Source of the DNA: Corynebacterium pacaense | Lineage (GTDB): Bacteria > Actinomycetota > Actinomycetes > Mycobacteriales > Mycobacteriaceae | Length of the DNA stretch: 64,000 bases | Assembly (NCBI RefSeq): GCF_900169525.1 | Contig: NZ_LT821240.1 | Coordinates: 817,684 to 881,683 of the forward strand | Direction: 5' to 3' | Part shown: piece after piece, positions 7,296-54,053 of the stretch | Layout of the letters: each line of letters opens with the position of its first letter | How positions within the stretch are numbered: position 1 is the first letter of the stretch | The notes under the pieces: generated by a model | The model's database searches: none | What the model saw: the letters and a program-made list of their open reading frames with translations, nothing else | What the model was told of the DNA's origin: nothing | Program-made: the position numbers and the translations under genes

Positions 7296-8729
7296 ATGAC
7301 CACCACCTCAGCCCGGTCCCTGCTGGATCACGTGCTCGACCACGACAGCTTCCATTCCTGGGATTCACCCCCTCACTATGGTGACATCGACGAGGATTAC
7401 CGCCTGGCACTTGCCCGCGCCAGGGAGAGGTCCGGGGTCGACGAGGCCGTGATCACCGGTCAGGGCACCGTCGACGGCACACCCGTGGCCTTCATCCTCT
7501 CCGAGTTCGCCTTCCTCGGCGGATCCATCGGTGCTGCGACCTCCCGCCGCATCATTGAGGCCATCCACCGCGCCACCAGGGAAAAACTGCCACTGCTGAT
7601 CTCCCCGTGTTCCGGTGGCACCCGCATGCAGGAGGGGACCCCGGCCTTCGCGCTCATGATCTCGATCACCACCGCGGTCTACCGCCACAAGGACGCGCAT
7701 CTTCCCTACCTGGTCTATCTCCGCAATCCCACCATGGGTGGCGTCCTGGCGTCCTGGGGTTCCACCGGGCACTTCACCTTCGCGGAACCGGAGGCGCTCA
7801 TCGGTTTCCTCGGGCCGCGGGTGGTGGAGCTGACCACCGGACACCCCATGCCGGAGGGGGTGCAGACCGGGGAGAACCTGGTCAGGCACGGCATCATCGA
7901 CGGTGTGGTCTCCCCCACCCAGCTCCGGGAGGCGGTGCGGCGGGTGACCGGAGTGCTCAGGCGGGCGTCGACAAGCGTTCCGCGGCCCCTCACACCCGCC
8001 CACCCGCGGCGAAGTGCCTGGGAATCGATCGAGAAAACCCGGGAGGACGGCCGGATCGGCGCCCGTGATCTGATCCGCGGGCTACCCAGGGTCGGCCTTT
8101 CCGGCACCCCCGCGGCCGTCAACGCCGCCCTGAGCAACATCGGTGGCCGACCCGTGGTGCTGATCGCGCAGGACCGCCGCACCCAGCCGCTCGGCCCGGC
8201 CGCGCTCCATCTCGCCCGGCGGGGAATCGCCCTTGCCGTGGAGCTGCGGCTGCCGATCGTCAGCATCATCGACACCCCCGGCGCCGAGCTGTCGCGGAGT
8301 GCGGAGGAACAGGGACTGGCCGGCAGCATCGCACGCACCATGGGGGAGCTTGTCGACGCCCCGGTACCCACGATGTCCATCATTCTGGGCCAGGGTTGCG
8401 GCGGTGCCGCTCTGGCGATGCTGCCGGCGGACCGCGTACTGGCAACCGAGAACGCCTGGATGTCACCCCTGCCGCCGGAGGGGGCCTCCGCAATCATTCA
8501 CCGCGACACCTCACACGCCGCGGAGATGATGGAACAGCAGGGCGTGACGGCACTGGCAATGCGGGAATCGGGAATCATCGACGGCATAATCGCCGAAACC
8601 GAGGACCCCGGAAAAGAGATAATCGCCGCCATCGAACACACCCTGCAGGAACTGGATGAAAATTCCGGCTCGGTGGGACGGGAGCAGCGATTCAGGCGCT
8701 ATGAGCGACTCGCGGAAACGATTACCTAG
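7296..8729 (+). CDS. Fused beta-alpha acyl-CoA carboxylase carboxyltransferase (AccDA type)
   Basis: A protein of 477 residues with two crotonase-fold halves. The N-terminal half has the beta-subunit signature LLISPCSGGTRMQEG; the C-terminal half has the alpha-subunit oxyanion signatures IIDTPGAELSRSAEEQG and GQGCGGAALAML. It would transfer carboxyl from carboxybiotin to an acyl-CoA. No zinc ribbon is visible at the N-terminus, unlike E. coli AccD. No biotin carboxylase or carrier gene is adjacent, so it must work with partners encoded elsewhere. The C. glutamicum gene in the same position is, as I recall, annotated as accDA/accD3. Start chosen at ATG 7296; GTG at 7290 is an alternative with better spacing from GGGAGG. 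Confidence 0.85.
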   Translation: MTTTSARSLLDHVLDHDSFHSWDSPPHYGDIDEDYRLALARARERSGVDEAVITGQGTVDGTPVAFILSEFAFLGGSIGAATSRRIIEAIHRATREKLPLLISPCSGGTRMQEGTPAFALMISITTAVYRHKDAHLPYLVYLRNPTMGGVLASWGSTGHFTFAEPEALIGFLGPRVVELTTGHPMPEGVQTGENLVRHGIIDGVVSPTQLREAVRRVTGVLRRASTSVPRPLTPAHPRRSAWESIEKTREDGRIGARDLIRGLPRVGLSGTPAAVNAALSNIGGRPVVLIAQDRRTQPLGPAALHLARRGIALAVELRLPIVSIIDTPGAELSRSAEEQGLAGSIARTMGELVDAPVPTMSIILGQGCGGAALAMLPADRVLATENAWMSPLPPEGASAIIHRDTSHAAEMMEQQGVTALAMRESGIIDGIIAETEDPGKEIIAAIEHTLQELDENSGSVGREQRFRRYERLAETIT

Positions 8730-19853: not shown

Positions 19854-20006
19854 TTCCACCGTCCGGTGGAAGCGAATGCAGACAGGAACGGGGAAACCAC
19901 CGCCTGGTCCACAGGCACCGGAGGTTCCACTCCTTGGGGTGAAGTCGGAGAAATCCGACAGAGCATATCCTCCGCTCTAACCCGACAGCTAACCTCGACG
20001 GCGACA
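19854..20006 (+). promoter_or_regulatory. c-di-AMP riboswitch (ydaO/yuaA leader) upstream of rpf1
   Basis: The conserved elements appear in the right order: ACGGGGAAACCACC (about 19889-19902), CTTGGGGTGAAGTCGG (19933-19948), AACCCGACAGCTAACCTCG (19979-19997), and an outer stem made by CCGTC (19859-19864) with GACGG (19997-20001). This is the RF00379 pattern, which in actinobacteria commonly controls rpf and NlpC/P60 cell-wall genes. The rpf1 ribosome site AGAGGA lies just 5 bases behind, so control by termination or by masking the site are both possible. Confidence 0.88.
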
Positions 20007-20011
20007 AATGA

Positions 20012-20617
<606 letters not shown>

Positions 20618-20625
20618 AAAGCCCG

Positions 20626-20670
20626 AAGAGGCGGTACCCCGGTTATCCGGGGTACCGCCTCTTCTTTGTT
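20626..20670 (+). terminator. Terminator of rpf1
   Basis: AAGAGGCGGTACCCCGG and its perfect complement surround a tiny loop and are followed by CTTTGTT. The stem is 17 bp, and it can also serve the convergent small ORF. Confidence 0.88.
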
Positions 20671-20695
20671 CTATCCGGGTTGCTGTCGGATCGGA

Positions 20696-20896
20696 CTAGC
20701 GGTTGATTCTGGTGTAGGGATGAACGTAGCCCAGGCTCTCGGGGGGAACCGGGAGCTCAAGATCATCGCCGAAGGGACTGGACGCACCAGCCAACCGGGA
20801 GGTGAGTTCGGAAACCGCGTGGCCATCGCCTGGGAGGTGCGCCGGCCATGCCGGGTCAACGTATCCCTTTTTCTCTACATTTGACATGCCTCCCAT
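20696..20896 (-). CDS. Small conserved-looking protein, 66 residues, unknown function
   Basis: ATG at 20896 has GGAG nine bases upstream. The product is acidic, soluble, with no cysteine or membrane segment, and ends in GYVHPYTRINR. Its codons have the strong GC3 bias of the neighbouring real genes, and no other frame covers the interval between rpf1 and the helicase-partner gene. I recognise no domain. It is divergent from the helicase-partner gene. Confidence 0.6.
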   Translation of the reverse strand: MGGMSNVEKKGYVDPAWPAHLPGDGHAVSELTSRLAGASSPFGDDLELPVPPESLGYVHPYTRINR

Positions 20897-20953
20897 TCTG
20901 TCAAACTCCGCCGCGAAAAGTCACCTCAACTGGAACTAAACTTGAATGCCACC

Positions 20954-23158
20954 ATGAAAAATGATCCACCCACGATGACACTTCGGGACTGGCTGGCCGA
21001 TTTGGACGATCCGCAGCTGGCCGAACTCCTGCGCAACCGACCCGATTCCGTGCTGCCACTGCCGCCCGGCTTTGGCTCCCTTGCAGCGCGTTTACAGCTG
21101 CGGGCGTCCCTGGTCCGCGCCCTCCACAGGCTCACCGCCCTCGACCTCGCGGTGCTGGAGGCCGCGGCGGACATCGGCGCGGAACTCCACCCCGTCACTG
21201 CCCCCGAAGTGGTGGAGAGACTGCACACCGTCCTTGAAAACAGCGGACAACTGCCGGATGCCGGGCAGGTCTCCCACGCACTGGACCACCTTCGCTCCAT
21301 GGCCGTGATCTACGGGCGGGATCACATCCGTATTGTCGGTGAGGCGATGCCCGCACTGCCCACGAACTGGCAGCTGCTTCCGGAGGTGCAGGCCCGCACC
21401 CTGAGCTTCGCCGAGGCCACCGAGGCCGTGGGGTCGCTGGACCAGCGCAAACGAAAGATCCTGACCACCCTCGTGGCATCCGGCGGCTTCGGGCTGACAA
21501 AGGACGCGGCGATCACCGCCATTCCCACCCGCCCGATCCCGGAGCTGATCTCAGCCGGGCTGCTGGCACGGGTGGACAGCAGTACCGTCAAGCTCCCCGC
21601 CGCCGTGCGGCGGGTGCTTGAGGGGAAGCAGGCGCTGCCCTGGCGCATTCTGCCCGTCGACAAGCATCCGGGGACCGCCGATGATTCCGCCGGCGTCGCG
21701 GCCGGGCTCGAGGTGGTACGCCTGACCAGAATGCTTATCGACGCCCTGGGTGCCACCCCGGCCGCCACCCTGAAGGACGGCGGCCTGGGCGTGCGTGCGG
21801 TCAGCAGGCTGACCAGGGAACTGGGCGTGGACGAGTTCCTGCTCGCCAGGCTGGTCAACCTGGCTGTGTCCGGCAACCTGCTCGCCCGCGGCGTCCCCGA
21901 TCCCCTGCCCGATGTTGATGACGGCGGTGATTACATCGCACCTACACCCACTGCCGATGAATGGCTCGCTCTCGACCTCCGTGGCCAGCTGGCCGCGCTG
22001 CTGCGCGCGTGGTGGTCACAGACCCTCGCCGCCTGGCTCGTCGGCGCCGCCGATCCCAGGAACAAACCGATCCACCTGCTCAGCCCGGCGGCGGCGCGTG
22101 AGCAGCTTCCGGACACCCGCGCGATCGTCATCGGGGCGCTGAGCAGAGTTGCACCGGATGAGCTGGCCGAGGAGATCTTCTATTCCCATCCGATCGCCGC
22201 GCACCGCATGGACGCCGGGACCGTGGAGCAGATTCTCGAAGAGGCACGCTGGATCGGCGCGGTCGCCGGTGGTGTCACCTCCGCCGGGCTCGCACTGCTG
22301 CGGGGGGATGACCCGGCCCCCGCGATCGACGCCCCTGCCCCGGTCCAGAACTTCCACGTACAGGGCGATCTCACGATCATGGTTCCCGGGCCGTTGGATC
22401 CTGCCATGCAGAAAATGACCGACACCATCGCCGAGCTGGAGTCCGCCGGTGTGGCCAGCGTGTACAGGATCACGGAATCATCCCTGCGCTCCGCCCTCGA
22501 TACCGGGCTGAGCACCACCGACATCGAGTCCTTCCTCCGTCAACATTCTTTGACCGAACTCCCGCAGTCGGTGACCTATCTGCTCAAAGACATCGCACGC
22601 AGGCACGGTACCCTTCGCGGCGGGCCCGCACTGTGCTATCTGCGTTCCGATGATCCCGCCGTACTGCTCGCCGCCATCGACGCCGCACCCTCGGTGGCGC
22701 TGCGTCAGATAGCGCCGACCGTGGCCATCTCCCAGGCGCCCCTGATCGCCGTGGTCAGGGCACTGCGTGAGGCGGGAATGCACCCCGTGGCAGAGGACGC
22801 CCTGGGTGCCCGGCTCGACCTGTCCCCGACACCGGTGCGGGTACCGTTAAGGGAACGCCAACCCCGTCGGACGGGGCTGGACGACGGCCGCATCCGGGCG
22901 GCCATCAACGCCCTGCGCCGCGAGGACGCGGCGGCTGGCGGCGAGGCCACCGAACAGCCCACGCTGGCGGTCCTGCAGGCCGCTGCGAGGGGGAACCGCT
23001 CGGTGACTCTCGGATTCGTGGATAAACAGGGGGTGGCGGTGCACCGCGTGGTCAAACCTCTGACTGTGTCCGCCGGTCAGGTCGATGCCCTCGATGAATC
23101 CACCGGAAAGATCCACCGCTTCCTTCTCCACCGCATCACGGAAGTGATAGTGGACTAG
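20954..23158 (+). CDS. Helicase-associated protein, Rv0862c-like partner of XPB
   Basis: A protein of 734 residues in the actinobacterial family encoded next to XPB (Rv0862c in M. tuberculosis). It has an N-terminal winged-helix-rich part (residues 1-280) and a C-terminal Helicase_C_3-type domain (about 450-730) with FHVQGDLTIMVPGPL and IAPTVAISQAPLIAVVRALREAGMHP, but no Walker motifs. It is thought to assist the XPB helicase, though its activity is not established. ATG 20954 is preferred over TTG 20942. The gap to the XPB gene is 51 bp. Confidence 0.88.
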   Translation: MKNDPPTMTLRDWLADLDDPQLAELLRNRPDSVLPLPPGFGSLAARLQLRASLVRALHRLTALDLAVLEAAADIGAELHPVTAPEVVERLHTVLENSGQLPDAGQVSHALDHLRSMAVIYGRDHIRIVGEAMPALPTNWQLLPEVQARTLSFAEATEAVGSLDQRKRKILTTLVASGGFGLTKDAAITAIPTRPIPELISAGLLARVDSSTVKLPAAVRRVLEGKQALPWRILPVDKHPGTADDSAGVAAGLEVVRLTRMLIDALGATPAATLKDGGLGVRAVSRLTRELGVDEFLLARLVNLAVSGNLLARGVPDPLPDVDDGGDYIAPTPTADEWLALDLRGQLAALLRAWWSQTLAAWLVGAADPRNKPIHLLSPAAAREQLPDTRAIVIGALSRVAPDELAEEIFYSHPIAAHRMDAGTVEQILEEARWIGAVAGGVTSAGLALLRGDDPAPAIDAPAPVQNFHVQGDLTIMVPGPLDPAMQKMTDTIAELESAGVASVYRITESSLRSALDTGLSTTDIESFLRQHSLTELPQSVTYLLKDIARRHGTLRGGPALCYLRSDDPAVLLAAIDAAPSVALRQIAPTVAISQAPLIAVVRALREAGMHPVAEDALGARLDLSPTPVRVPLRERQPRRTGLDDGRIRAAINALRREDAAAGGEATEQPTLAVLQAAARGNRSVTLGFVDKQGVAVHRVVKPLTVSAGQVDALDESTGKIHRFLLHRITEVIVD

Positions 23159-47294: not shown

Positions 47295-48326
47295 TCATTC
47301 GATGCGGGCGGGCGTGAAACCGCTGCCCGGACCCTCGCTGCCATCCATGTCACGGAGAATCTGGTCCATGTTCACCGACAATGACGGCATGAAAAGCGGA
47401 CCCTGCAGCGGGGTTCTACAGGCGAGATCATAGTTGGGGATCATGCCGCCCGACATGACCCCCACCAGCCGGGTACCGGCGAGCACGGGAGCACCGGAAT
47501 CACCACGGTTGGCGCACAGCTGGGACATGGTGCTGCGCTGATCGGCGGTCCACACCGGTCCACAGGTTCGGCCCGTGGCCACGCCGGTCTTACACAGCTG
47601 CTGACCGCCGACAACCGTGCCCCCGATCTCATCGACGGTGACGCCGTTGTAGGAATTGGTTATTGCCGCATTGGATCCCAGCTCAATGACCGAGTAGTCC
47701 GAGCCGGTCCCCGTGGCCACCACCGTGCCGGAGTCGCCGACCCAGTAGGAATCCGCGGAACGGACGCTGTCCCCAACCTTTCCGCAGTGCCCGGCGGTGA
47801 TCCCGATTTTTCGCCCCTCGGCGTCGGTTCCGGTCACCGCGAGTGTGCACATGGAGTGTTCACCTAGGTAGATGGGGGTACCCGGCCCATAGAGGGATGT
47901 ACCCTGCGACTCGGCCTCAATGGACTCCGCAGGTACCGCGGGGGCGTTGAACCAGGAACCCTGCACGCGGTGCACCACCTCCCCGGGGGTGGCCGCCATG
48001 ATCTGTGATTCCAGGTCGGTGCGCACCTCATAGTTCGGAAGTGGCTGCGCTGCCCCGATCTCGACCACCGGCGCCGGAGCAGGGGTCCGCACCCCGCCGA
48101 AGTCGGCCAGGGCGGCCTCGATGCCGCTGTTGACGCTCGCATCGAGATCCTCCGCGACTCGGCGGTCCAGAGCCGGTCCGTACCCTGAGAATGTGGCGTT
48201 CGCCTGATCCACAATGGCCGCGGTATCGACCCACTGCGCAGCATGCACCGGGGGTGCGAATAGACTCACCGCTGCCACCAGCACTGAGGTGGTGAGCAGG
48301 GGACGCGGTGGGACCAATCGGTGCAT
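47295..48326 (-). CDS. Secreted trypsin-like serine protease
   Basis: A protein of 343 residues. A Sec signal ends near VHAAQW; residues 35-140 are a propeptide-like helical region; the chymotrypsin-fold domain follows. The triad is recognisable: His180 (TAGHCG), Asp210 (GSDYSVIEL) and Ser277 (NRGDSGAPV). Cysteines around 160/181 and 245/255 fit disulfides. Actinobacterial relatives are secreted proteases with broad or unknown targets. It lies downstream of the transcarboxylase operon but about 100 bp apart. Confidence 0.9.
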   Translation of the reverse strand: MHRLVPPRPLLTTSVLVAAVSLFAPPVHAAQWVDTAAIVDQANATFSGYGPALDRRVAEDLDASVNSGIEAALADFGGVRTPAPAPVVEIGAAQPLPNYEVRTDLESQIMAATPGEVVHRVQGSWFNAPAVPAESIEAESQGTSLYGPGTPIYLGEHSMCTLAVTGTDAEGRKIGITAGHCGKVGDSVRSADSYWVGDSGTVVATGTGSDYSVIELGSNAAITNSYNGVTVDEIGGTVVGGQQLCKTGVATGRTCGPVWTADQRSTMSQLCANRGDSGAPVLAGTRLVGVMSGGMIPNYDLACRTPLQGPLFMPSLSVNMDQILRDMDGSEGPGSGFTPARIE

Positions 48327-48424: not shown

Positions 48425-48784
48425 CTAGTCGATTTCGACGAGGGACTGACCGCCCTGCACCGCATCCCCCTCCTTGACGTTGAGGGCTGCGACAACGCCT
48501 GCCGCGGGTGCGGTAATCTCCGTCTCCATCTTCATGGCTTCGAGGATGAGAAGGACCTGACCAGCCTCGATCTCCTCGCCAACCTCGACGAGGACCTTGA
48601 AGACGGACCCGGCTAGAGGTGCGACGATGGCGTTGGCGGCCACGCCCTGCACCGAGGCGGTGGTGGGGGCGGCGGGGGTGTTTCCCCGTGAACCGATGAC
48701 GATGGATCCGAGGGTCTTCTGCTCCTCCTCCACCTCCACGTCCACGCTGTAGGCAATACCGTTGACTGTGACTTTGAGTTTCAT
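48425..48784 (-). CDS. Biotin carboxyl carrier protein (transcarboxylase 1.3S-like)
   Basis: A biotinyl-domain protein of 119 residues. The biotin lysine is Lys85 in EAMKMET; the preceding flexible linker is rich in Ala, Pro and Thr ([11 protein letters not shown]). Length and layout match the 1.3S subunit of Propionibacterium transcarboxylase and the carrier parts of decarboxylases. It carries carboxybiotin between the two carboxyltransferases encoded upstream. Last gene of a four-gene operon; 12 bp after the small subunit gene. Confidence 0.92.
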
Positions 48785-48796
48785 TTTCCTCGACCT

Positions 48797-49054
48797 CTAG
48801 AACAGTTGGGAGTGGTCCTGGACACGCTGCCGGCCCTGCGCAGCCCACGTCCGATGACGTTGGAGTCTGACGGCCCTCACCTTTCCGCGGTTACCCATGT
48901 AGGCCGAAACCGCGGCGGAGATGGCGAGGAGGATGTCCTCCGGTATATCTGCGTCGGAGCGCGCACGGAGATCGGCGAGCTCCGATTCGACGGAATCCAG
49001 TCGCGCCGAGAGCTGTGCGACCAGTTCCTCGAGCTGTTTCTTTTCCATCATCAT
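48797..49054 (-). CDS. Small accessory subunit of the biotin-dependent carboxyltransferase complex
   Basis: A protein of 85 residues. The first 35 residues form a coiled coil (KKQLEELVAQLSARLDSVE); the rest has ILLAISAAVSAYMGNRGKVR and a C-terminal WAAQGRQRVQDHSQ. Similar tails occur, as far as I recall, in small subunits of methylmalonyl-CoA or acyl-CoA carboxyltransferase complexes and fused to some of them. No membrane helix is present. It is wedged between the 12S and 1.3S genes with gaps of 3 and 12 bp. Likely role: scaffold between core and carrier. Confidence 0.75.
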   Translation of the reverse strand: MMMEKKQLEELVAQLSARLDSVESELADLRARSDADIPEDILLAISAAVSAYMGNRGKVRAVRLQRHRTWAAQGRQRVQDHSQLF

Positions 49055-49057
49055 CTC

Positions 49058-50608
49058 CTAGGACGGTCCGAGTCCGTGTTTCTTCGACGGACGGCTGACG
49101 CGCTTGTTCGCCAGGAGCTCGAGGGCATCGGCGATCTGGAGGCGGGTGTAGGCGGGATCGATGATGTCGTCGACGAGTCCCCTGGAGGCTGCCATGTAGG
49201 GCGAGGAGAAGGTGTCCTTGTACTCCTGGATCAGTTGCTCCCGGCGCGCCGGCTTATCCTCCGCCGCCTCGATCTCCCTGCGGAAGACCACATTGACGGC
49301 ACCATCGGCACCCATGACGGCGATTTCCGCGGTGGGCCAGGCGAAGACGCGGTCGGCGCCGAGGTCCTTGGAGCACATGGCCAGGTGGGCACCACCGTAG
49401 GACTTGCGCAGCACGACGGTCAGCTTGGGCACCGAGGCCGCGGAGTAGGCGTAGAGCATCTTCGCACCGTGGCGGATGATCCCGCCGTGCTCCTGGGCGA
49501 CGCCGGGCATGAAGCCGGGGACGTCCACCAGAGTGACCAGTGGAATGTTGAAGGCGTTGCAGAAACGGATGAAGGAACTCGCCTTGTCTGAGGAATTGAT
49601 GTCGAGCACTCCCGACATCACCTGTGGCTGATTGGCTACGATTCCCACGGTGCGACCGGTGATCCTGGCGAAACCGACCACGATATTGCGAGCGAATCCC
49701 TCCTGGACCTCCAGGAAATCGGCGCGGTCGACGATCCGGGCGATCACCTCGCGGACGTCGTAGCCCTTCTTGCCGTCGACGGGTACCAGGTCGCGCAGCA
49801 CCTCATCGGGTTCGACATCGAGGTCCGCTTCCACGATGGGCGGCTCCTCCGTGTTGTTCTGCGGGAGGAAGCTCAAGAGCTTCTGCGCTATCAGCAGAGC
49901 CTGTTCGTCGTTCTCGGCTTCGAAATGGATATTGCCGGCCTTGGACATATGGGCGTCGACACCACCGAGCTGCTCGGCGGTGACGTCCTCACCGGTGACC
50001 GACTTGATCACGCCGGGACCGGTGATGAACATCTGCGCACCGCGCACCTGGATGATGAAATCCGTCAGGGCCGGGGAATACGCCGCCCCACCGGCGCAGG
50101 GGCCGGCAATGATGGAGATCTGCGGGACGAGTCCGGAGAGCAGGACGTTGTTGTAGAAGACCTTTCCATATCCGGAGAGGGAGTCAATGCCCTCCTGGAC
50201 GCGGGCACCACCGGAATCATTGATGAACACGAAGGGCGTACCGGTGGTGGCCGAGGCCTCCATCATCGCCGCCACCTTCTCGGACTGCGTCTCTCCCGCC
50301 GAGCCGCCCATGACCGTGAAGTCCTGGCTGGCGATGTGCACGGGCCGGCCGAAGACCGCGCCAACTCCGGTGACCACGCCATCGCCGGGCGCGTCGACCT
50401 TGTCCATGCCGAAGGCGGTGGTGCGGTGCTGGGCAAACATTCCGGTTTCCCGGAAGGTGCCCTGGTCGACGAAGGCATCGACGCGCTCGCGGGCGGTCAG
50501 CCGTCCCTTGTCGTGCTGTTTGTCAATTTTTGCCTGCCCGCCACCCAGTGCGACCCGTTGGCGTTCGACGGTCAGGGCGTCGAGACGTTCCTGCATACTC
50601 TGTTCCAT
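49058..50608 (-). CDS. Acyl-CoA carboxyltransferase, transcarboxylase 12S / MmdA type
   Basis: A protein of 516 residues with two crotonase-like halves. It has the acyl-CoA and biotin site motifs FINDSGGARVQEG, GPCAGGAAYSPALTDF, LVDVPGFMPGVAQEHGG and KSYGGAHLAM. The family moves carboxyl between methylmalonyl-CoA (or propionyl-CoA) and biotin. The C-terminus ends KKHGLGPS-like, as in MmdA and 12S proteins. The 5S gene is 2 bp upstream, which supports a methylmalonyl-CoA/pyruvate transcarboxylase over an ordinary propionyl-CoA carboxylase. No biotin carboxylase gene is present in the operon. Confidence 0.92.
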   Translation of the reverse strand: MEQSMQERLDALTVERQRVALGGGQAKIDKQHDKGRLTARERVDAFVDQGTFRETGMFAQHRTTAFGMDKVDAPGDGVVTGVGAVFGRPVHIASQDFTVMGGSAGETQSEKVAAMMEASATTGTPFVFINDSGGARVQEGIDSLSGYGKVFYNNVLLSGLVPQISIIAGPCAGGAAYSPALTDFIIQVRGAQMFITGPGVIKSVTGEDVTAEQLGGVDAHMSKAGNIHFEAENDEQALLIAQKLLSFLPQNNTEEPPIVEADLDVEPDEVLRDLVPVDGKKGYDVREVIARIVDRADFLEVQEGFARNIVVGFARITGRTVGIVANQPQVMSGVLDINSSDKASSFIRFCNAFNIPLVTLVDVPGFMPGVAQEHGGIIRHGAKMLYAYSAASVPKLTVVLRKSYGGAHLAMCSKDLGADRVFAWPTAEIAVMGADGAVNVVFRREIEAAEDKPARREQLIQEYKDTFSSPYMAASRGLVDDIIDPAYTRLQIADALELLANKRVSRPSKKHGLGPS

Positions 50609-50610
50609 GA

Positions 50611-52110
50611 TTATTCTCCCGGCTCTACCTTGACCGTCTGACTGCGACCGCCCACGGTGATCTTGTATGTGATGGGTTCGCGAACGGCGTTCGCCTGTCC
50701 CGATGCCACGGCCTTCTCTCTGGCCAGTTGCTCCTGGGTCTTGCCCACGTTCTTCGGTCCCTCATCGCGTGTGGTGAAAAATCCCGGAGCCACGCCGGGG
50801 AAGAGCGCATTTGTCAGAACGTCCTCGTCGGTACCATCGAATCCGGGAAGGGATTCCGCCTCGGCGCGCAGCTGGTCCCACTCCGGCTCGAGCAGATCCG
50901 CCGGCCGCACGGTGATGGGCTCCTTCCTGGCCTGTGCCTCCGCCTGCCTGATCAGATCGGGATTGCGTTCGCCGATGCACTCCCCGTAGTAGCCGAGCAT
51001 GAGGTCGGCGAATTCCGCGGTGAGCACCTTGTAGCGGCCCATGAGCACGTTGAACACCGCCTGGGTTCCGACGATCTGAGAGGAGGGGGTGACCAGTGGC
51101 GGGTACCCTGCGTCCTTGCGCACGACGGGCACCTCGAGCATCACCTCATCCATGCGGTCGGCGGCCCCCTGGGCGCGCAGCTGGCCCTCCATGTTGGAGA
51201 GCATGCCACCCGGGATCTGCGAGAGGAAGATATTGGTATCCACCAGGGTCTTCGACTCGAATTCCGCGTACTTTGGGCGGACCTGCTTGAAGTGGTCGCG
51301 GATGTTGATCAGGCGGTGCATGTCCAGACCGGTTTCAAAACCGGTGCCCTCCAGCATCTCGGCGAAGGACTCGGTGGGATTGTGCCCCGGTCCCAGCGAC
51401 ATCGAGGAGATGGCGGTGTCCACCACGTCCGCGCCGGCCTCGATCGCCTTGAGCAGCGTCACCATGGTCACACCGGTGGTCGAGTGACAGTGAACGTTGA
51501 TCTGTGTCTCCTCGCCGTAGGTGTCCTTGATCCCGCGGATAATGTCATAGGCCGGCTGTGGTTTGAGCAGCGCCGCCATATCTTTAAGGGCGATGGAATC
51601 CGCCCCCATGTTCAGGAGCCGACCGGCCTGCTCGATGTAGCCCTCCACCGTGTGCAGCGGCGAGGTGGTGTAGCAGATTGTGCCCTGGGCGTGCCCACCG
51701 ACCTGCTTCACCGCGGACATCGCGCGCTCCAGGTTGCGGGGATCGTTGAGGGCGTCGAAGACACGGAAGACATCCATGCCGTTTTCCTTGGACTTCTCCA
51801 CGAACTTGTCCACCACCATGTCCTCGTAGTGGCGGTATCCCAGGAGGTTCTGCCCTCGTAGCAGCATCTGCAGGCGTGAATTGGGCATCAGTTCGCGGAA
51901 TGTGCGCAGCCTCTTCCACGGATCCTCGTTGAGGAAGCGGATGCAGGCATCAAAGGTCGCCCCGCCCCAGCACTCGACGCTCCAGTATCCGGCGTTATCT
52001 ATGTCCTCACATGCTCCGACCATGTCCTCCATGGCCATTCTGGTTGCCATCAGGCTCTGGTGCGCGTCGCGCAGGGCCACCTCGGTTACACCAATTTGTC
52101 TTGGGCTCAT
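50611..52110 (-). CDS. Pyruvate/oxaloacetate carboxyltransferase, transcarboxylase 5S type
   Basis: A protein of 499 residues. The TIM barrel has the metal and carbamate site residues Asp15 (LRDAHQS), Lys176 (ALKDMA) and His207/His209 (NVHCHSTTG), as in the 5S subunit of Propionibacterium transcarboxylase and oxaloacetate decarboxylase alpha. No biotinyl domain follows, so the carrier is the separate 1.3S-like protein. It exchanges carboxyl between oxaloacetate/pyruvate and biotin. It is the first gene of the operon; no membrane beta subunit is encoded nearby, which argues against a sodium-pump decarboxylase. Confidence 0.93.
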   Translation of the reverse strand: MSPRQIGVTEVALRDAHQSLMATRMAMEDMVGACEDIDNAGYWSVECWGGATFDACIRFLNEDPWKRLRTFRELMPNSRLQMLLRGQNLLGYRHYEDMVVDKFVEKSKENGMDVFRVFDALNDPRNLERAMSAVKQVGGHAQGTICYTTSPLHTVEGYIEQAGRLLNMGADSIALKDMAALLKPQPAYDIIRGIKDTYGEETQINVHCHSTTGVTMVTLLKAIEAGADVVDTAISSMSLGPGHNPTESFAEMLEGTGFETGLDMHRLINIRDHFKQVRPKYAEFESKTLVDTNIFLSQIPGGMLSNMEGQLRAQGAADRMDEVMLEVPVVRKDAGYPPLVTPSSQIVGTQAVFNVLMGRYKVLTAEFADLMLGYYGECIGERNPDLIRQAEAQARKEPITVRPADLLEPEWDQLRAEAESLPGFDGTDEDVLTNALFPGVAPGFFTTRDEGPKNVGKTQEQLAREKAVASGQANAVREPITYKITVGGRSQTVKVEPGE

Positions 52111-52273
52111 AACTTCTAAAGATAGAGGTGTTGTGTAGATCTCGCAGCCCTTCCCACAGTTCCATTAGTCACACCATATAACCTGGATCACAGTGCCAAA
52201 CGGGCGGTCAGTGGCACCTGCCGGGGCCGCTGAATCCACGCGTCCGCGGTGGAGGTCCCCGCCGACCCCCCCG

Positions 52274-52374
52274 CCCCGGTCATCGTGCCTTCCCGGCCCG
52301 TCAAGGTGATGATCCCTGACCACCTTCCCCTTATCTTCCACCGGTCAACTGCTCCCAGAGCCCCTTGTCAAAGG
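52274..52374. repeat. 101-bp perfect direct repeat, copy A
   Basis: Bases from CCCCGGTCATCG to CCTTGTCAAAGG are identical to 52543-52643. This copy is detached from any gene. Confidence 0.97.
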
Positions 52375-52537
52375 AGCTGCCGCGGTTGTCTGGGTGCTGT
52401 TCGGCGGACTGCTCAGCGGCAACTGGGAAACCATCATCACGCTGGTCGCGGTCCTCTGCGCCGGTGCCACGGCCTACATCGCCCCCAGCCGCATTGAATC
52501 CGCGCGACTACGGTAACCGTGATCGTGGCACCCCGAT
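52375..52537 (+). pseudogene. C-terminal fragment of a small membrane protein cut by the repeat
   Basis: Directly after copy A a frame reads AAAVVWVLFGGLLSGNWE, TIITLVAVLCAGATAYIAP and SRIESATTV to TAG 52537. It looks like two helices or a re-entrant pair, with normal codon bias. No start codon exists in frame, because the DNA upstream is the duplicated 3' end of the regulator gene. The remaining 52111-52273 stretch holds nothing I can name. Confidence 0.5.
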
Positions 52538-52542
52538 AGGCA

Positions 52543-52643
52543 GACCCCGGTCATCGTGCCTTCCCGGCCCGTCAAGGTGATGATCCCTGACCACCTTCCC
52601 CTTATCTTCCACCGGTCAACTGCTCCCAGAGCCCCTTGTCAAA
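52543..52643. repeat. 101-bp perfect direct repeat, copy B
   Basis: Identical to 52274-52374; its right 42 bp are the last codons and stop of the regulator gene (52602-54053), so this is the original copy. Confidence 0.97.
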
Positions 52644-54053
52644 GGCCACCGGAGATTTCGCGGACATGTGCTTGACGGCGTTGTCAAGCTTGGCCCACCA
52701 CACCCGCACGGCCTCCTCCTGATCCCCGCTCACCAGCGCACGGAGAATCCGGCGGTCATCGCTGAGTATCCTGTCGATGGCGGGCCGGTAGTCCAGTCGC
52801 AGCACCGAGATGAACATTCGAACCCTCAGCGTCAGTGCATGAAAACTCCTCGCGGTCTGAAGCAACCCGCTACTGTCGGCGATCTCCTGCTGGAAATGCA
52901 GATCGGCCTGGTCCACATGGACGGAGGTCCCGTGGACCGCCGCCGCCTCGAGCGAACGCAACGCGATGCGCGGAGCGAGCATACTGTGTCTGGGCTGTGC
53001 GCTGCAGGCCCGGAGAATGAGGGTGCCCAGCTGCCGCCGTGCGGCGTAGAGATCAATGATGTCCCTGCCCGAGACCTCCGGAATGGAAAAGGAGCCTTCA
53101 CCGAAGGTCAGCAGACCATCGTCGGTCATCCTCCGCATCGCGCTCCGCACGGTGGAAACCTGAATACCCATGTCCGAGGCCAGCATGGAGGGCGGGATCC
53201 GGTCGCCCGGTTGAAAACCTGAGTTCATGATCTCCTTGCGCAGAGAAATCGCGATCTGTTCGGTGATGGACAGTTCATTCTGCGGCAACCAGGGGGAATG
53301 CCGGGGTATGCGCTGGCCCGGAGCGGGATACTCCGGAAGCGGGAACGGATGTGAGTCAAAAACCTCGGAGGTTTCTCCTCCCTGTACGGACCGGCCGGAG
53401 GAGTGGAGACGCCGCCACCGGACCCCGTGCAGCCCCCGATCGGCGCGTTGGGCGAGTAGGGCGAGAAGATCTCCCGGTATGGAATCGGCGTCGGTGGTGC
53501 AGGCGGACAACGCCACGGCGACACCATCGAGGAAGTCATCCCAGGCAGGACCCCCGGGGCGCCACCGGATACTCCTCGTCCCTCCGGTCGACTCCTCCGC
53601 TGCCGCACCCCCGGAGTCTTCCAGGGGTTTGTTGGGCTTCCAGTCACGAGCACCGGAAACCCGGAGCGCCGCCATCACGGCGGTGGCCCGCCTGGCCGAT
53701 GCATGGACCTGGGTGCCCATGTGATCCCCGGATTCGGCGAGGACGATGGTGATCTCCGGGAACTCCACGGTGAACTCGACGATGTGGAGACGACCTCCCT
53801 CATCCGGAGCGCCTCCCCCAGCACCCGCCCGCCGGATATTCACAACCGCCCTGCTGACCACCGTCTGGCTCAGACCGGTCAGAGACGAGATCCTTCTCGT
53901 TGAGTAGTCACGGCTGCCCACTCGCGGGCCGGCGGTGGCGATGACACTGGCCACGATGTCATCGGCCGTCTCCTGAATCCGCGGTCGACCCGCACCCCGC
54001 CGGGTCTTATCTCCGCGCCCGCGGGTCCGCTCCGGGGTTGCTGCCATGCTCAT
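52602..54053 (-). CDS. GntR/FCD-type regulator with an extra N-terminal HTH domain
   Basis: A protein of 483 residues, twice the normal size. Residues 261-325 are a GntR winged helix (EQIAISLRKEIMNSGFQPGDRIPPS, cut short here; then QVSTVRSAMRRM) and 330-475 a helical FCD-like ligand domain (DQADLHFQQEIADSSG, SGDQEEAVRVWW). Residues 20-75 hold a second DNA-binding region (STRRISSLTGLSQTVVSRAVV); 80-200 is an alpha/beta part of unknown kind. Metal-binding histidines of classic FCD proteins are mostly absent. It is divergent from putA, so proline control is likely. Its 3' end is duplicated 168 bp farther on. Confidence 0.82.
   Translation of the reverse strand: MSMAATPERTRGRGDKTRRGAGRPRIQETADDIVASVIATAGPRVGSRDYSTRRISSLTGLSQTVVSRAVVNIRRAGAGGGAPDEGGRLHIVEFTVEFPEITIVLAESGDHMGTQVHASARRATAVMAALRVSGARDWKPNKPLEDSGGAAAEESTGGTRSIRWRPGGPAWDDFLDGVAVALSACTTDADSIPGDLLALLAQRADRGLHGVRWRRLHSSGRSVQGGETSEVFDSHPFPLPEYPAPGQRIPRHSPWLPQNELSITEQIAISLRKEIMNSGFQPGDRIPPSMLASDMGIQVSTVRSAMRRMTDDGLLTFGEGSFSIPEVSGRDIIDLYAARRQLGTLILRACSAQPRHSMLAPRIALRSLEAAAVHGTSVHVDQADLHFQQEIADSSGLLQTARSFHALTLRVRMFISVLRLDYRPAIDRILSDDRRILRALVSGDQEEAVRVWWAKLDNAVKHMSAKSPVAFDKGLWEQLTGGR

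Follow-up and report, generated by a model that had tools for sequence, protein, structure and literature searches.

A putative Propionibacterium-type transcarboxylase operon in Corynebacterium pacaense with a small fourth gene remotely resembling the delta subunit of decarboxylase pumps

We analyzed a 64,000-nucleotide stretch of the Corynebacterium pacaense genome (contig NZ_LT821240.1, positions 817,684 to 881,683; the window), in which four minus-strand genes encode a 5S-like, a 12S-like, an 85-residue and a 1.3S-like protein. Judged from the sequence, this operon very probably encodes a Propionibacterium-type methylmalonyl-CoA:pyruvate transcarboxylase, and a working enzyme is likely. By analogy, the 85-residue protein is most likely an unrecognised subunit with a role in assembly, corresponding in soluble form to the delta (MmdD/OadG-type) scaffold found in sodium-pumping decarboxylases such as the methylmalonyl-CoA decarboxylase (Mmd). 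Since transcarboxylase is reported as a two-subunit enzyme in 108 Propionibacterium and Corynebacterium genomes (PMC9403272), the transcarboxylase of the genus Corynebacterium is already known, and the novelty lies in the fourth gene. No paper linking the small gene to delta was found in the open-access literature, and the novelty is limited to that scope. A conserved fourth subunit, read earlier as a 12S fragment (PMC2909200), may belong to this textbook multienzyme complex. If this is true, studies based on three subunits miss a component, and transcarboxylase is tied by descent to sodium pumps.

Identity of the 5S, 12S and 1.3S subunits

The open reading frames were found exactly where a preliminary description of this DNA had placed four tightly packed genes. 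The gene for the 5S subunit (pyruvate/oxaloacetate carboxyltransferase; 50611..52110, minus strand, 499 aa) is followed on the same strand by those for the 12S subunit (methylmalonyl-CoA/propionyl-CoA carboxyltransferase; 49058..50608, 516 aa), the small fourth protein (48797..49054, 85 aa) and the 1.3S biotin carboxyl carrier subunit (48425..48784, 119 aa), with intergenic gaps of 2, 3 and 12 nt. A GGAG sequence overlaps the 12S stop codon and lies immediately before the ATGATGATG of the small gene. Asp15, Lys176, His207 and His209 of 5S and Lys85 of 1.3S (in the motif EAMKM), which we take to be the catalytic and biotin-bearing residues, were intact at the positions previously described and were identical in the aligned Propionibacterium 5S and 1.3S chains.

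The 5S protein scored 982 bits against NF008984, the NCBI equivalog model for transcarboxylase 5S, above the curated cut-off of 827, and its closest chain in the Protein Data Bank (PDB) was 1rqb, a transcarboxylase 5S (E 1.3e-250). Its HMGL-like and PYC_OADA domains are common to the oxaloacetate decarboxylase (OAD) alpha subunit and pyruvate carboxylase (Pyc), but 5S scored under the OAD and Pyc equivalog cut-offs (668 bits against 756.5 for oadA). The closest PDB chain to 12S was 1on3, a transcarboxylase 12S (E 6.2e-235; 783.6 bits, in comparison with 682.6 for the next chain), and the mmdA score of 12S was below the cut-off (750 versus 999 bits). The 1.3S protein matched PF00364, its top PDB chains were 1o78 and 1dcz, both transcarboxylase 1.3S, and its first 9 residues were identical to those of chain 1o78_A. 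Like the Propionibacterium transcarboxylase (EC 2.1.3.1; PDB 1rqb, 1on3, 1o78), the operon encodes 5S, 12S and 1.3S, and the catalytic and biotin residues agree with those of that enzyme. It differs in its Corynebacterium host and in that the small protein is regarded here as a subunit and not as part of 12S.

A genome scan gave 120 loci, of which the best 80 were taken for comparison. Seven of them, on short or cut-off stretches without a visible 1.3S gene, were excluded, and the remaining 73 showed both 12S and 1.3S. The order 5S-12S-small-1.3S was present in 73 of these 73 complete named loci, and the propionibacterial transcarboxylases of Acidipropionibacterium and Cutibacterium (L100, L102) have the same four-gene order. 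Given this order and a 5S score above the curated cut-off, the operon is not a product of chance.

In a 12S tree of 26 rows, the window 12S fell inside a 12-row transcarboxylase clade with support of 100/100, and a separate branch was formed by the three remaining full-length carboxyltransferase subunits that the genome encodes, which are presumably DtsR and AccD proteins. The rows adjoining the transcarboxylase clade were the alpha subunits of sodium-pump methylmalonyl-CoA decarboxylases from Acetoanaerobium, Ilyobacter and Monoglobus together with a delta-less 12S of Parabacteroides (fork 93/95). High identity between the decarboxylase alpha subunit and transcarboxylase 12S was already noted in PMC7650540. 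A tree of 5S that included Pyc, OadA and OadA-like outgroups had long branches and no settled order, and no claim is built on it. The preliminary description had treated a grouping of 5S and 12S with ATP-dependent carboxylases as decisive against it; in the tree 12S lies in the transcarboxylase clade, outside the branch of the other subunits of this genome, and 5S is set apart by the equivalog scores and not by a tree, so that these checks did not refute the description. The subunit set that it had proposed is supported by the 5S equivalog, the PDB relatives and the 12S clade, but it had left the 85-residue protein unexplained.

It is also conceivable that 12S and 1.3S work with a biotin carboxylase encoded elsewhere as an ATP-dependent propionyl-CoA carboxylase, with 5S being incidental. 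As stated in the preliminary description, there is neither a biotin carboxylase nor a pump gene in the operon; OAD_beta, the model of the decarboxylase pump beta subunit, had no match in the whole genome (0/1), and the three biotin-carboxylase domain matches of the genome were all outside the window. A 633-aa biotin-carboxylase frame, which we take to be AccBC-like, could supply the missing activity, and 12S is 50-51% identical to two other carboxyltransferase subunits of the genome. However, 12S lies in the transcarboxylase clade and outside the branch of these other subunits, a biotin carrier and a 5S are encoded in the operon itself, in an order that is constant in all complete loci, and four other PF01039 matches in the genome could serve such carboxylases. 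An ATP-dependent carboxylase is therefore very improbable, and this reading was rejected on the 12S tree and the model scores.

The 85-residue protein and the delta subunit

In a profile scan, the small protein was a separate frame in 73 of the 73 loci, and a fusion with 12S was never seen; the profile that located the gene had itself drawn rows from 28 of them. The scan recovered the small gene in L027, L070, L077, L078 and L094, including two loci (L070 and L077) in which tblastn at 1e-3 had missed it. Residue numbers below start at the second ATG, which gives 84 aa, following alignment A1. In the 29-row alignment, the coiled-coil leader is variable, and the half that comes after it is conserved and contains seven invariant residues (I44, A46, A47, V48, G53, W69 and R74). 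The small protein is under purifying selection: against two near relatives, one of which is L023 (dN 0.15, dS 1.30), synonymous divergence (dS) was 1.30 and 1.43 and nonsynonymous divergence (dN) 0.15 and 0.14, with dN/dS of about 0.1, and against three more distant relatives dS was 2.57 or saturated and dN was 0.28-0.33.

At E 0.001, neither NCBIfam nor Pfam assigned the small protein to a family. At E 10, Pfam returned five matches below their cut-offs, the top one being DUF7310, a coiled-coil model (E 0.0024); PF04277 (OAD_gamma) was not among these five. A PDB profile search gave mostly coiled coils, with GCN4 constructs first, among the 60 of 142 matches listed. The structure model had three helices, with low confidence C-terminally (block means 53-62 from residue 51). 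Its helix 4-32 is charged and coiled-coil-like, no membrane helix was seen in the protein, and the delta-like C-terminal half covers residues ~36-79.

In sodium-pump decarboxylases, the delta/OadG scaffold gene occupies the place between a 12S-type alpha gene and the biotin carrier gene. In L133-L136 and L155 the gene at this place is annotated as delta or OadG, and in L132 it was read from the frame. When the C-terminal half of the small protein alone was used as a profile, the Acetoanaerobium and Ilyobacter deltas ranked 1 and 2 of 2902 frames, with E-values of 5e-5 and 2e-3, and the next frame had an E-value of 0.67; with 200 column shuffles of the same profile, the best E-value of any frame was 0.0026. 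The reverse profile, built from three delta tails, placed the small protein, judged by its position between 12S and 1.3S, in 39 of the top 40 of 13146 frames. The hhalign comparison of the small protein with delta gave an E-value of 5e-4. Homology of the C-terminal half with the delta tail is thus supported but remote. The Mmd pump (alpha, beta, gamma and delta subunits) is like the window operon in its related 12S/MmdA proteins, in the order 12S, small protein or delta, biotin carrier, and in the related C-terminal tail. In contrast to the pump, the window operon and genome have no beta pump gene and do have 5S, and the small protein carries a coiled-coil-like leader but lacks the membrane helix of Mmd delta.

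Several results weigh against the link to delta. The best E-value of the reverse profile was just 0.006, and the hhalign probability was only 32%. Among the background frames, the forward profile failed to detect the OadG-type proteins of Monoglobus, Bacteroidota and actinobacteria. Weak PF04277 matches (best E 0.02) were given by 3 of the 29 small-protein members, and equal or larger numbers of members matched several unrelated families, most of them coiled-coil models. The delta-bearing 12S rows were split in the tree, the Bacteroidota ones standing beside PccB and an archaeal row. Because it has no membrane helix and matches PF04277 weakly, the small protein is not classed as a member of the OadG family. 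OAD_gamma matched 12 of 296 Actinomycetota genomes, 6 of them over the cut-off, and inspection by eye of six OAD_gamma loci (L120-L125) showed no W...R tail resembling that of the small protein. A tblastn search of the plasmid collection with three delta proteins gave no additional deltas, and the delta set is small.

The small protein could be a real subunit whose likeness to the delta tail is convergent, each having independently acquired an Ala-rich helix with a W...R motif after it. The stretch is short and Ala-rich, and both the hhalign probability and the OadG-type proteins missed by the forward profile fit such an origin. However, none of the 200 column shuffles of the same make-up attained the score, the reverse search agrees with the forward one, and the gene position is identical to that of delta, so that we regard convergence as possible but doubtful. 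A different account of the small gene, as a part of 12S, exists for the operon of P. freudenreichii, in a paper that we take to be Falentin et al. (2010). This paper gives the operon four coding sequences but the enzyme three subunits (PMC2909200), which counts against a four-subunit complex. There, PFREUD_18850 was interpreted as the C-terminal end of a 12S that had been truncated, on the grounds that the Swiss-Prot entry Q8GBW6, whose C-terminal part it matches, has both joined (PMC2909200). If the same held for C. pacaense, the 85-residue protein would be a broken-off end of 12S with no role of its own. In the loci compared here, however, the small gene is never fused to 12S and is under purifying selection, the crystallised 12S chain has 523 residues, almost to the last of which the window 12S can be aligned without the small part, and the small protein resembles delta subunits, which are themselves encoded by separate genes. 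A broken-off 12S end is thus unlikely, and the present loci speak against the truncated-12S reading as a general rule; the comparison covered these loci and not the P. freudenreichii sequence itself. The carboxyltransferase of an E. coli pathway was given four genes, MTCA-D, in PMC7344785.

The delta subunits of methylmalonyl-CoA and glutaconyl-CoA decarboxylases are homologous to OAD gamma, the C-terminal tail of which binds the alpha subunit (PMC7274780), and delta is cited as indispensable for formation of the Veillonella complex (PMC11575231). On this model, the small protein would link the catalytic subunits as the delta tail does, and its predicted coiled coil would replace the membrane anchor of delta. 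On balance, we lean towards a four-component transcarboxylase containing a membrane-free form of delta, which would have arisen from an Mmd pump by loss of beta, exchange of the membrane helix for a coiled coil and recruitment of 5S.

Distribution in Corynebacterium and the predicted pathway

The distribution of the operon was examined in 201 Corynebacterium genomes and in a wider sample of 296 Actinomycetota genomes. The 5S protein was found over the cut-off in 47 of the 201 genomes, and strong matches to the small protein (101-129 bits) occurred in exactly these 47. Seven weak matches in the genus (≤19.3 bits), one of which lies in a genome with a strong match as well, look like chance coiled coils. 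The genus search for the small protein scored at most 26 first-look candidates per genome, so divergent copies elsewhere could be missed. In the wider sample the small-protein profile matched 7 genomes, 3 strongly (the window genome, G339 and G239) and 4 weakly (17-20 bits); G239, graded only as belonging to the same phylum, has all four genes, with a small protein of 72 aa (L110). The comparison across Corynebacterium proposed in the preliminary description thus showed 5S in part of the genus and a constant gene order in the loci sampled. C. glutamicum, a named control, has the mutase and no 5S over the cut-off. This agrees with the earlier remark that the enzyme is outside the C. glutamicum core genome, but the 47 genomes show that it is not confined to propionibacteria and the strain studied here.

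A joint tree of 5S and 12S was built from 50 of 76 eligible rows (the window and 75 loci) with a quick method, SH-aLRT support only and a midpoint root. The 19 Corynebacterium rows, including the window, formed one clade (99), which adjoined a group of 27 rows (99) from the Propionibacteriaceae and related taxa, and Cutibacterium and Acidipropionibacterium lay outside. In the 12S tree with outgroups, four Corynebacterium and four propionibacterial rows were placed together (98/98) within the transcarboxylase clade. This branching suggests a single transfer into Corynebacterium from a propionibacterium-like donor.

Methylmalonyl-CoA mutase was found in 55 of the 201 Corynebacterium genomes and the epimerase over its cut-off in 55, the set being the same for both. 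Mutase and epimerase were present together in 47 of the 47 genomes with 5S, versus 8 of the 154 others (Fisher p 6e-38, uncorrected for kinship). These eight genomes with mutase and epimerase and without transcarboxylase (G039, G080, G106, G113, G119, G164, G174 and G186, of which G119 is only 53% complete) are a natural comparison for the mutase acting alone. In one transcarboxylase genome, the second match to the mutase family is spread over two overlapping frames (G001:C5:226623-228079), possibly owing to a frameshift or a sequencing error.

The search for mutase and epimerase in the C. pacaense genome, which the preliminary description had suggested as a check, found both: the mutase gave two matches, and the epimerase scored 146 bits (cut-off 115). 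Succinate CoA-transferase scored 761 bits (cut-off 659). The transcarboxylase, mutase and epimerase loci are on one contig, hundreds of kb apart. In the proposed reaction, 12S would transfer the carboxyl group of S-methylmalonyl-CoA to the biotin of 1.3S, and 5S would pass it from there to pyruvate. The products would be propionyl-CoA and oxaloacetate, and neither ATP nor free CO2 would take part. Together with the mutase, the epimerase and succinate CoA-transferase, the transcarboxylase would close a Wood-Werkman cycle, the most likely use of which would be propionate formation when oxygen is short. Two other genes of this genome count against this use. A 1178-aa pyruvate-carboxylase-like frame means that the cell probably has another source of oxaloacetate, and a PrpD-family gene means that propionyl-CoA may also be oxidised, so that the direction in vivo could differ. 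Propionic acid is made by several Corynebacterium species; a literature search on propionate formation by named Corynebacterium species gave nothing usable. The transcarboxylase is a possible propionate route for about a quarter of Corynebacterium species, by the share of sampled genomes with 5S.

Related frames and neighbouring sequences

Some further frames resemble the operon proteins. A weaker carboxyltransferase-domain match (161 bits) lies in a 547-aa frame ~40 kb from the operon (7416-8579, plus strand; G000:C13:825099-826262). At least 15 Corynebacterium genomes have a 5S-like frame of ~520-630 aa scoring 295-311 bits, far below the transcarboxylase cut-off, and 5S-like frames at L145 (G070:C9) and L146 (G049:C1) are ~35% identical to the window 5S. 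In L137 (Parabacteroides, 19992-21884), no OadG gene separates a 12S-type gene from the biotin carrier gene that comes directly after it, and no decarboxylase pump gene is annotated in this 41.5-kb stretch, the gene table of that collection being incomplete.

The gap upstream of 5S (52111..52601, minus strand) is the presumed promoter region of the operon, and a scan of it gave no match to a sigma-70-like promoter. An exact 101-nt direct repeat has copies at 52274-52374 and 52545-52645, so that the gap holds one copy and part of the other. The second copy spans the 3' end of a GntR/FCD regulator gene (52602-54053, minus strand), and the last codons of this regulator are therefore duplicated in the gap upstream of 5S. 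Directly downstream of the operon (47295-48326, minus strand) lies a gene for a secreted-looking serine protease, which matched the Rv1815 family weakly (45 bits versus a cut-off of 175).

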